Shown piece by piece: positions 43,220-45,859 of a DNA stretch of 64,000 nucleotides (its first letter is position 1; each line of letters begins with the position of its first letter). Below the pieces are notes generated by a model, which did not search any database, was not told the origin of the DNA, and saw only the letters and a list, made by a program, of their open reading frames with translations. This DNA comes from Streptomyces sp. CGMCC 4.7035 (GTDB lineage: Bacteria > Actinomycetota > Actinomycetes > Streptomycetales > Streptomycetaceae), in the NCBI RefSeq assembly GCF_031583065.1, contig NZ_CP134053.1, positions 3,906,001 through 3,970,000 of the forward strand, in the 5' to 3' direction. The position numbers were made by a program, and so were the translations under genes.

Positions 43220-43614
43220 CCCGGCCGATCCTCGGCCAAGCGCCCGACGCGGAGGAGGGCGGCTCCGGGGCCGCCCGCCGCGTGCGGCCGCCGGTGCGGC
43301 TTCTCGCACGTGGACCTGCGTGTGGGGCCAGTACGCCGCTGGCCGCGACCGACATCAAGCGCCCGTGCCGCACCAAGGGAGCCCAACTCCGCAGGCGCAG
43401 TGGCGGCGGCGAGGGGGCGGTCGGCGGCCGAGACGATCATGGATCGTACGGTCGTCCAGCCCGGCGATTGGGCGATTGGGCGATTCGGCGATCGCGGTCA
43501 CGTCTGCGTCGCGTCGGGCGCGACGCAGACAACCGTGGTGAGCCGCCAGTCAGTGGTGGCGCCACGACTCGACGCAGCCGGGCTGCGAGGTGGGCAGCCC
43601 GGTGCCGATGTCTA
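43220..43614. other. Gene-free stretch upstream of the MITE
   Basis: No gene can be supported. It contains four 8-bp tandem repeats (CGGCGATT, GGGCGATT, GGGCGATT, CGGCGATC) at 43462-43493. It also contains a perfect 12-bp hairpin, GTCTGCGTCGCG (43502-43513) with its complement at 43519-43530, which could be a transcription terminator. Confidence 0.6.
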
Positions 43615-43834
43615 GTGCCCCAACAGGCAACGTTCGCCCCGTCGCGACGCCCGGCACGCTCCCCCAAGCTCTTCGAGCAGGGGGACCCCCACTCGCCGCA
43701 CCGGCCGAAAGCCCAAGTACATCCAGTACGAGGGCTTCCGTCCGGCACTCCCCCAAGCTCTACGAGCAGGGGGTACCCCCAGAGCACGCACCGGACGCCG
43801 CTCCTTGACGGGCAAACGTTGCCTGCCGGGGCAC
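43615..43834. mobile_element. MITE-like non-autonomous element (220 bp)
   Basis: The ends are inverted: left GTGCCCCAACAGGCAACGTT, and right end, read inward, GTGCCCCGGCAGGCAACGTT. The terminal repeat of about 26 bases has three mismatches. TA flanks both sides (43613-43614 and 43835-43836), a typical TA target duplication. The interior carries no gene but two copies of a hairpin repeat. The right-hand TA is shared with the left end of the adjoining IS. Confidence 0.7.
43661..43773. repeat. Two copies of the Streptomyces CCCCCAAGCTC hairpin repeat
   Basis: CCCCCAAGCTC, then TTC or TAC, then GAGCAGGGGG, at 43661-43684 and 43750-43773. Each folds as a stem with inner GCTC/GAGC and outer CCCCC/GGGGG. 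Such palindromes are common between Streptomyces genes. Here both lie inside the MITE. Confidence 0.75.
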
Positions 43835-43890
43835 TAGGAGCTGTCCGGCCGATCATGTGACTGTCGCCTGGTCGGATCGTTGTCCCGTGC

Positions 43891-44834
43891 ATGGGGCGGG
43901 GTGGACGCGGTGATCTGTCGGACGCGGAGTGGGAACGGCTGCGGCCGTTCCTGCCCGTCAGCAATGGTCGGTGCGGGCGGTGGCGCGACCACCGGCAGGT
44001 GATCGACGGGATTTTGCACCGGGTGCGCACCGGGGTGCACTGGCGTGATCTGCCGGAGCGGTTCGGGCCGTGGAAAACGGTCTACGAGCGCCATCGGCTC
44101 TGGTCTGCGGACGGCACCTGGGAATGGCTGCTGCAGCAGGTCCAGGCTGAGGCCGATGCGGTGGGCGCGATTGACTGGGATGTCTCGGTGGATTCCACCA
44201 TCGTGCGCGCGCACCAGCACGCGGCCGGCGCCCGCACCGGCCCGCCGCCGGCTTTTGCCGCCCCAAAGGGGGGCGAGGCGCTGGAACACCAGGACGAAAC
44301 TCCGTGGCAAAGCCTCATCGACCGGCTGGTGGAGGTGGTGCGGGAGGCGAGGGCCTGGGGCGTTCGCGCGGTGGCTTCACCAGCAAGATCCACCTAAGCG
44401 CGGACGGCCGCTGCCGCCCGTTGTCTCTGATCGTCACACCGGGGCAGCGAGCCGACTGCACCCAGTTCGTGCAGGTGCTGGAGAAGATCCGGGTCCCCCG
44501 GTCCGGGTCGGGCAGGCCACGCAAGAAGCCGGACAGCGTCGCAGCAGACAAGGGCTACAGCAATGGCCCCTGCCGTCAATACCTGCGGCGGCGCGGCATC
44601 CGGCACACGATCCCGGAGAAGGCCGACAGTCGCGCCTCCCGCCTGCGCAAAGGATCACGAGGCGGACGTCCGCCTGGGTTCGACCAGAAGCGGTACAAGA
44701 AGCGCAACACCGTCGAACGGGCCGTCAACAGGCTCAAGAACTTCCGTGCGGTGGCTACGCGGTATGACAAGCGCGGCTACGTGTTCCTCGGCACTGTCTC
44801 AGCTGCAGCTGTCATCGTGTGGCTCCGCTCATGA
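43891..44834 (+). CDS. IS5/IS427-type DDE transposase, two frames joined by -1 frameshift
   Basis: Frame A starts at ATG 43891 and runs to 44397: GDLSDAEWERLRPFLPVSNG (the DUF4096 helix-turn-helix part), VIDGILHRVRTGVHWRDLPE, and the first Asp in DVSVDSTIVRAHQH. Frame B, one base back, continues GLGRSRGGFTSKIHLSADGR, the second Asp in VAADKGYSNG and the Glu in RNTVERAVNRLKNF, and ends WLRS at 44834. Both frames are open from 44271 to 44394. The heptamer G GGG GGC at 44270-44276 region, right after AAA, is a plausible -1 slip site. Programmed frameshifting is common in IS427-type elements. If no slip occurs, only an inactive N-terminal product is made. Confidence 0.85.
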
Positions 44835-45299
44835 CCGGCCACTCGTGTTCAAGTCGAGTGCGGAGGCCTGGCCGACCGCGGCAAACAGGATGAGTGGCAG
44901 TTCCTTGTCGGCCTGGCCGACCGCCAGCGCGAGCCAACGACCGCTGTCGGGGAGCGGCCACACCTGCATGCTTACGGCCTGTTGGCTGAGGTAATCGAGC
45001 GGCTCGGACACCGGCACTCCCTCGCAACCGGCACTCAAATACGGCCCGAGGTCCACGACGAACGCATTGCCCCACCGAGTCGTCAGGCGTGCTGCCAGGT
45101 CGTCGAGGCAGGCCTGCAGGTCAGCTTCGGCCTCAACCCAGGCCTGCCCGTCGTCGTCATCCCAGAAGTCCCGACTGACCTGCAGTTCGCGCACATGATG
45201 CTCTGGTCCACCGCCCCCGCAGGCGTCGACATAGGTCACCTCCGGGAACGGCTGCACAACCAACGCGTCAATCGTCGCGAGGTACTCATCGGTGGTCAT
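44829..45299 (-). CDS. IS passenger gene, unknown function
   Basis: 156 aa from ATG 45299. It is acidic, with no signal or membrane segment: TTDEYLATIDALVVQPFPEV, then VEAEADLQACLDDLAARLTT, RWGNAFVVDLGPYLSAG and LPDSGRWLALAVGQADKELP. I do not recognise the family; the size and fold-like alternation could fit an immunity- or regulator-type protein, but that is speculation. It lies wholly between the IS ends and converges on the transposase, the two stop codons overlapping in TCATGA (44829-44834). This tight packing suggests it moves with the element. Confidence 0.7.
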   Translation of the reverse strand: MTTDEYLATIDALVVQPFPEVTYVDACGGGGPEHHVRELQVSRDFWDDDDGQAWVEAEADLQACLDDLAARLTTRWGNAFVVDLGPYLSAGCEGVPVSEPLDYLSQQAVSMQVWPLPDSGRWLALAVGQADKELPLILFAAVGQASALDLNTSGRS

Positions 45300-45469
45300 G
45301 GACGCAGGTTATGGGACCGCGCAGACAACTACCGCCGACCGTGCGCACCGACCCATGATCGGCCGGACAGCTCCTAGGTGCCGACCCTTCGGCGGGCAGG
45401 CGAGCGCGGTCGGCGAGGCGGCGGTCGGTGACGTGTCCTGCACGAGCCGCCCTGCCGTGGGCGCGGGCT

Positions 45470-45859
45470 TCAGCCGTTCAAGGTACGGGCCAGGACCTCG
45501 CGTTGCAGCGGCTGCACCTCGGAATGCAGCTCGCGGCCCTTCTCGGTCAGGGCGACCCACACCCCGCGCCGGTCCTCCTCGCATACCGAGCGCAGCACCA
45601 GGCCGTCCTTCTCCAGCCGGCCGATCAGCCGGGACAGGGCGCTCTGGCTCAGATGGACGCGTCCCGCGATGTTCTGCACCCGGCACTGGTCACCGCGCGC
45701 GGGCGCCTCGGTGGCGAGGATGTCGAGCACCTCGAAGTCACTGGCGCCGAGCCCGTACGGGTGCAGCACACGGTCGATCTCGCACATGGTGCGGGCGTGC
45801 ACCGACAGGATGTCCCGCCACTGTTCCTCGAGCCGGGGACCGGCCGATTTCGCTGCCAT
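45470..45859 (-). CDS. MarR-family transcriptional regulator
   Basis: 129 aa. Helices: WRDILSVHARTMCEIDRVLH, DFEVLDILATEAPARGDQCR, recognition helix VHLSQSALSRLIGRLEKDGL, and wing RSVCEEDRRGVWVALTEKG. Complete for the family. Start at ATG 45859. Its target is not obvious; upstream on the same strand is a VOC protein gene 76 bases away. Confidence 0.92.
   Translation of the reverse strand: MAAKSAGPRLEEQWRDILSVHARTMCEIDRVLHPYGLGASDFEVLDILATEAPARGDQCRVQNIAGRVHLSQSALSRLIGRLEKDGLVLRSVCEEDRRGVWVALTEKGRELHSEVQPLQREVLARTLNG

Follow-up and report, generated by a model that had tools for sequence, protein, structure and literature searches.

The 64,000-nucleotide window analyzed here (Streptomyces sp. 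CGMCC 4.7035, contig NZ_CP134053.1, positions 3,906,001 to 3,970,000 of the forward strand) contains, at 43837–45374, one complete 1538-bp IS5-family insertion sequence (IS) with both ends present and a passenger gene inside. The preferred interpretation, assigned a probability of roughly 0.85, is that this element is a transporter-type, IS427-like IS that carries one foreign gene between the stop codon of its transposase and its right terminal inverted repeat (TIR). With moderate confidence, the Streptomyces-wide IS5-family lineage to which it belongs can be read as a minimal system for gene capture, in which a fixed slot would take single unrelated genes, of which 19 kinds were found, neighboring copies would collapse, recombination would reshuffle the cargo, and the cassettes would outlive the transposase. 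Elements of this kind look like simple shuttles that acquire single genes and pass them on.

The anatomy of the window element agrees with the earlier note on this DNA, which had described one IS unit with perfect 21-bp TIRs and TA flanks. The left TIR (43837–43857, + strand) and the right TIR (45354–45374, − strand) form an inverted pair that is perfect over 21 bp. The outermost base of the left end is a G preceded by TA (43835–43836), TA follows the right end (45375–45376), and corresponding ends occur in relatives. The flanks read CTA before the terminal G and TAG after the terminal C. Including the CTAG flanks, the arms extend over 31 nt (43834–43864 and 45347–45377) with 90% complementarity. 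The passenger gene (44829–45299, − strand) encodes a 156-aa protein of no known family and lies at the matching position in two further complete copies. It is convergent with the transposase and its stop codon overlaps the transposase stop at 44829–44834, again as first described.

The transposase is encoded in two frames on the + strand. Frame A (43891–44397) is the DUF4096 N-terminal part (PF13340, E = 3.4e-26; NF033580, E = 3.9e-39) and frame B (44304–44834) is the DDE catalytic part (PF01609, E = 4.2e-16; NF033580, E = 3.7e-44). NF033580 scores of 134.8 bits for frame A and 151.2 bits for frame B exceed the cut-off of 110, and the PF13340 and PF01609 matches are likewise above cut-off, which places the element in the IS5 family. 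Frame B lies −1 relative to frame A and is open upstream to 44175, so the open frames overlap at 44175–44397. An A3G6 run at 44265–44273 (+ strand) is the probable slippery site for a predicted −1 frameshift that would join the two frames. It has a counterpart in relatives: among the 24 paired-end copies whose transposase looks intact, all except L149 (23 copies) have a run of A2–4/G4–6 in the equivalent position. Two compact copies (L080 and L096) encode the transposase as one uninterrupted 313-codon frame, an apparent in-frame fusion in each. The group name IS427 is used provisionally for the element, following the earlier note and the group description in PMC3281130.

With the transposase part as DNA query, matches were obtained in 223 of 295 same-genus genomes (E ≤ 1e-20). 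Transposase loci were drawn from 30 loci of the DNA search, 48 further long matches, 12 passenger loci and the loci already collected; both transposase halves were present in 88 loci, representing 80 distinct transposases. Ends were accepted under a strict rule (TIR match of at least 15/18 and YTAR-like flanks on both sides), and 44 of the 80 transposases had paired ends. Sixteen of these 44 elements are compact: 15 bp separate the transposase stop from the right TIR, and the total length is 949–1003 bp. In the remaining 28 this interval holds 286–966 bp more. Leaving aside the three elements that hold the window passenger, the count is 25 cargo-bearing and 16 compact of 41. The same end-pair search gave 0/44 on the upstream side and 0/2200 in two-base-block shuffles (44 elements, the window element included). 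The earlier note had assumed that a transposase is usually all that elements of this family carry; this does not describe the complete copies, of which 28/44 bear cargo, although in a more distant nine-row part of the transposase tree 8/9 are compact. The transposase looks intact in 16/28 cargo-bearing versus 8/16 compact elements. The left flank in the 44 elements was CTAG in 36, TTAG in 4, CCAG in 3 and CTAA in 1, and the right flank was CTAG in 39, CTAA in 3, CTAT in 1 and CCAG in 1. This variation fits a YTAR target with duplication of TA; at the window site, duplication of CTAG is an alternative.

The slot content is diverse. No BLASTP similarity at E ≤ 1e-3 links the 19 families into which the cargo proteins fall (27 proteins; the 28th, L089, was placed by DNA). 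Three of the 19 families score above the Pfam cut-off: SnoaL/DUF4440 (L075), a methyltransferase (L116) and GNAT (L126). Three others have sub-threshold Pfam rows only, namely PF01320 colicin/pyocin immunity (L069, L065), PemK (L122) and MauE (L092). The other 13, including the window passenger, have no Pfam row at the limits used, and an NCBIfam scan of ten cargo proteins returned no family. Assignment of the colE-like cargo of L069 to PF01320 was rejected (E = 5.5e-4, 20.4 bits, below the 21.2-bit cut-off), and inspection by eye of five colE-like loci revealed no nuclease neighbor. The PemK/MazF-like match in the cargo slot of L122 (2581–2946, − strand) is weak (E = 0.0051) and also below cut-off. 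The cargo is convergent in 21 of 28 elements by open reading frame (ORF) choice; the copies are non-independent, hence orientation is not claimed as a property of the slot. The earlier note had asked whether copies with identical ends carry the same or other cargo. Siblings with paired ends hold unrelated genes in the same slot, and in two other genomes the complete unit recurs with the window passenger.

The 87-aa and colE-like cargo families were each traced in 246 genomes, and the best 20 loci per family were examined. A TIR with at most 4 mismatches was located upstream of the 87-aa gene in 8/9 loci at ≥72% identity and in 0/11 at ≤47%. A TIR accompanied the colE-like gene in 10 of the best 20 loci and in 0/2 at 47–48% identity.

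In the tree of 44 transposases, the three copies with the window passenger form one clade (100/98), and neither the colE-like nor the 87-aa cargo family is a clade. The compact state alone needs 9 changes, at least 6 of them forced by supported branches. All 20 labels together need 23 changes, where the minimum possible is 19.

Genome G245 records movement of cargo together with a sibling element. Two copies of a 1305-bp element with the 87-aa cargo are identical over 1316 bp and have unalignable flanks. L198, L199 and L222 are cargo IS loci of that genome with the 87-aa gene, which is present there four times at 99% identity, two of them within ~25 kb of contig ends. Co-movement of cargo and IS is seen in this sibling; for the window element, which is single-copy and recurs in other genomes, it is predicted.

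Probable traces of capture are preserved in other siblings. A 3′ remnant of a second transposase lies just inside the right TIR in L079, L090 and L122 (3/28; none in 200 shuffles each). Compact-end traces directly after the transposase stop were significant at p < 0.01 in 5 of the 28 elements tested (L072, L079, L087, L090 and L148). L084/L094 is a mosaic in which a lipoprotein-like gene (named by eye) lies between ~206 bp from the 159-aa cassette and ~44 bp from the 87-aa cassette. From these remnants, compact-end traces and mosaic we infer capture, collapse and inter-element recombination, and capture between neighboring IS copies is the likely route. The element would once have been compact, and two neighboring copies would have come to flank a chromosomal gene. 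Loss of the inner right end and of nearly all of the second copy except its right TIR would then have made that TIR the end of the enlarged element. Later exchange of cargo between elements would have proceeded by recombination in their common transposase and TIR sequence.

The passenger itself was followed into other genomes. Fifteen distinct loci hold the passenger or a close relative at 61–100% identity; two further loci at 41–44% were excluded. Both ends and both transposase frames are present in 3/15 loci (the window, G522 and G572, which is Kitasatospora sp. MBT63), so the complete unit with matching ends, which the earlier note had proposed to search for, recurs in two other genomes. 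Both ends with the transposase mostly deleted were found in 2/15 (G509 and G134). The right end with a transposase remnant, fragments or none was found in 6/15 (G431, G397, VRA16 Mangrove soil, G179, G111 and G240). In the remaining 4/15 (S. rhizoryzae, G334, G552 and G496) the end scan did not recognize a right end; at the S. rhizoryzae locus, blastn aligns up to the last base despite this. The transposase is apparently intact in 2/15 loci (the window and G522); G240 is uncertain, with an open frame and a dissimilar middle part. The transposase of this diverged copy (L142) is one open frame whose dissimilar middle stretch is perhaps a frameshifted patch. The passenger has no internal stop in 13/15 loci. 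The S. rhizoryzae copy is frameshifted, and the G496 match starts at residue 30. These 15 loci were found by means of the passenger protein, a sample that favors open passenger frames.

Beyond the close clade, the passenger family is widespread in actinobacteria: a profile of 42 relatives matches 299 of 392 same-genus genomes (E ≤ 1e-3). The passenger, which the earlier note had found unlike anything recognized, is therefore not an orphan; the protein has no match in Pfam, NCBIfam or PADLOC. In a tree of 57 distinct passenger homologues, in which bootstrap support was not settled, 11 have a recognized TIR and 46 do not. The TIR-bearing homologues form two groups, with a TIR in 9/12 and 2/2 members, and in these 11 of 14 members the TIR is next to the start codon. 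No TIR was recognized for three members of the larger group or for the 43 remaining rows. Among the TIR-less relatives, one set has chitinase-like and DNA-clamp-like neighbors in common and another has permease-like and glycosylase-like neighbors (names by eye). The window genome also encodes a distant relative (L177, C1:5001193–5001624, E = 1.4e-24) with no recognized TIR beside the gene. These TIR-less relatives with common neighbors, together with the relative in the same genome, point to a probable chromosomal origin of the passenger gene, by one or two acquisitions.

The same relatives bear on the idea that the arrangement is a chance juxtaposition or artefact, with a chromosomal gene lying between two unrelated IS ends. 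Relatives without TIRs do exist, some of them among common neighbors. The earlier note had named the passenger alone at a fixed site, with ends matching two different elements, as the observation that would count against a single unit; a solitary setting applies to distant relatives only and not to the window element. Matched ends and the same layout occur in three genomes, the shuffled controls were empty, and the TIR adjoins the start codon in most members of the two TIR-bearing groups. The chance explanation is refuted by the complete unit's recurrence and retains almost no weight. A second proposal, in which the passenger controls or aids the movement of the element that carries it, draws on the convergent layout with overlapping stops and on the single transposase clade formed by the three complete passenger copies. 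Regulation had been among the functions proposed in the earlier note. It is very improbable because closely related transposases are paired with unrelated cargo or with none; moreover, the 16 compact elements manage without a passenger, and 46/57 passenger homologues lack a recognized TIR alongside. A role in transposition is accordingly rated unlikely.

A third explanation is compatible with the transporter-type interpretation and concerns what is selected. The passenger may serve the host, for example as an immunity protein, antitoxin or stress protein, and be selected even after transposase death, with the IS as its vehicle. A benefit to the host is possible, and as a full account it is held only tentatively, at well under even odds. 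In the close clade, the 13/15 loci with a passenger free of internal stops stand against 2/15 with an intact-looking transposase. The nonsynonymous to synonymous rate ratio (dN/dS, NG86 method) has a median of 0.37 over 78 non-independent pairs, and variable columns at codon positions 1–3 number 32, 38 and 54 of 157 in six copies whose transposase is deleted or decayed. This pattern points to moderate purifying selection on the passenger. Other cargoes resemble PF01320 immunity proteins and PemK, in both cases at the sub-threshold scores given above. However, open passengers are favored by the way the loci were found, and the constraint may come from cycles of mobility. No toxin gene was recognized by eye beside passenger relatives at the 17 of 21 loci where the gene was located, a survey made without a family scan, and the colE-like loci lacked a nuclease. 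The immunity role that had been suggested is unsupported: Pfam, NCBIfam and PADLOC gave no defense evidence, and neighbors were judged by eye only. Structure prediction, also proposed earlier, yielded a confident fold model for the passenger, and comparison of the predicted structure gave no clear match. The passenger is most likely a hitch-hiking single gene, possibly useful to the host, from an actinobacterial chromosomal family and not part of the transposition machinery.

A TAACCT at 45306–45311 (− strand), 6 nt before the passenger ATG, is a possible −10 box of a leaderless promoter, and TAnnCT is found at the corresponding place in 8 of the 10 copies compared (not in L135 and L140). This box may drive a leaderless transcript, in which case the passenger would be transcribed from its own short promoter adjoining the right TIR.

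Several results weigh against the transporter and gene-capture interpretation. In the window element, neither test for a trace of capture reached significance (p = 0.27 and 0.88), and a second-transposase remnant is missing in 25 of the 28 cargo-bearing copies. The 8.09-Mb genome of the window holds this one copy of the element, and the sole further match there spans 45 bp. Both the frameshift product and the element's movement are predictions from sequence. Cargo ORFs were picked by length and GC content at third codon positions (GC3); the choice is ambiguous in L091 and L122, and the L089 cargo frame is shortened. Cargo is unevenly distributed on the transposase tree, with 27/35 rows in the part that includes the window and 1/9 elsewhere. 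The 36 of 80 transposases without a recognized end pair were counted as neither type, and two of the three window-passenger copies were found through the passenger and not through the transposase.

Transporter IS (tIS) elements, described in excerpts of PMC3129680, PMC9330008 and PMC7986276, are IS copies whose passenger genes have no part in transposition. The window element shares with them a single transposase, two TIRs and a passenger inside; cargo that moves with the IS, a further tIS trait, is shown for the G245 sibling and would apply to the window element by extension. Its passenger lies between the TIRs, and its unrelatedness to transposition is suggested by the transposase and passenger trees. 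No IS5-family element with a recurring slot for cargo is named in these excerpts; in the present lineage, 28/44 complete copies carry cargo of 19 kinds. The IS427 elements of Paracoccus, in the portion of PMC3281130 consulted, comprise 11 elements of 832–865 bp whose two transposase frames overlap and include a frameshift motif; 10/11 rows give 2-bp direct repeats, and additional ORFs are ascribed to IS21 and IS66 members. The IS5-family DDE transposase and the two overlapping frames are common to both; the A3G6 run is the probable counterpart of the frameshift motif, and a TA duplication within YTAR would correspond to the 2-bp repeats. The window element, at 1538 bp with a passenger, and its compact relatives, at 949–1003 bp, differ from the 832–865 bp that is usual, not strict, for that group.

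In the IS4 family, the modular IS231/MIC231 elements include derivatives that retain ends and cargo without a transposase. In the portion of PMC2266710 consulted, IS4-family elements have passenger genes and other extra DNA adjoining their left TIR, and the modular design is the point of likeness. An arrangement of the IS231/MIC231 type, with extra DNA between the left TIR and the transposase, was rejected: all 28 cargoes, as defined here, sit past the transposase stop and inside the right TIR. The lineage is a tIS by anatomy, set apart by a slot on the other side of the transposase from the IS4-family cases and by many cargo kinds. Mobile insertion cassettes (MICs) are described in an excerpt of PMC3129680. 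G509 (L134) and G134 (L139) resemble them in keeping both ends and the passenger with only a transposase stump. The window element is not a MIC, which lacks a transposase of its own, and both its transposase frames are present and apparently intact. Nor is it a composite transposon flanked by two complete IS copies; it has one transposase and no second copy in the genome. The excerpt of PMC7371123 concerns Tn3-family transposons and IS counts. Among the open-access titles and abstract openings listed, none dealt with cargo-bearing IS5/IS427 elements of Streptomyces, and a prior description elsewhere is possible. If the interpretation is correct, ordinary-looking Streptomyces IS elements would serve to carry single chromosomal genes from genome to genome, and annotations reading 'IS5 family transposase' would conceal linked cargo. 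The compact and cargo-bearing states, remnants and mosaics would form a sequence record of the passage from a simple IS to a one-gene transposon.

The surroundings of the element were also compared. In the related genome G003, the outer flanks are 48 bp apart and ~2.3 kb of the window is missing, the IS and its neighbors included; the gap is consistent with an unoccupied region, yet it is not a clean empty site. An Rfam scan of 43500–45500 gave no match. A 226-bp element resembling a miniature inverted-repeat transposable element, with its own imperfect TIRs (CTAGTGCCCC...), occupies 43612–43837 and abuts the window IS, one CTAG being common to both. Further matches to it in the same genome are at 5375187 (99%) and 6668611 (85%), and others are partial.
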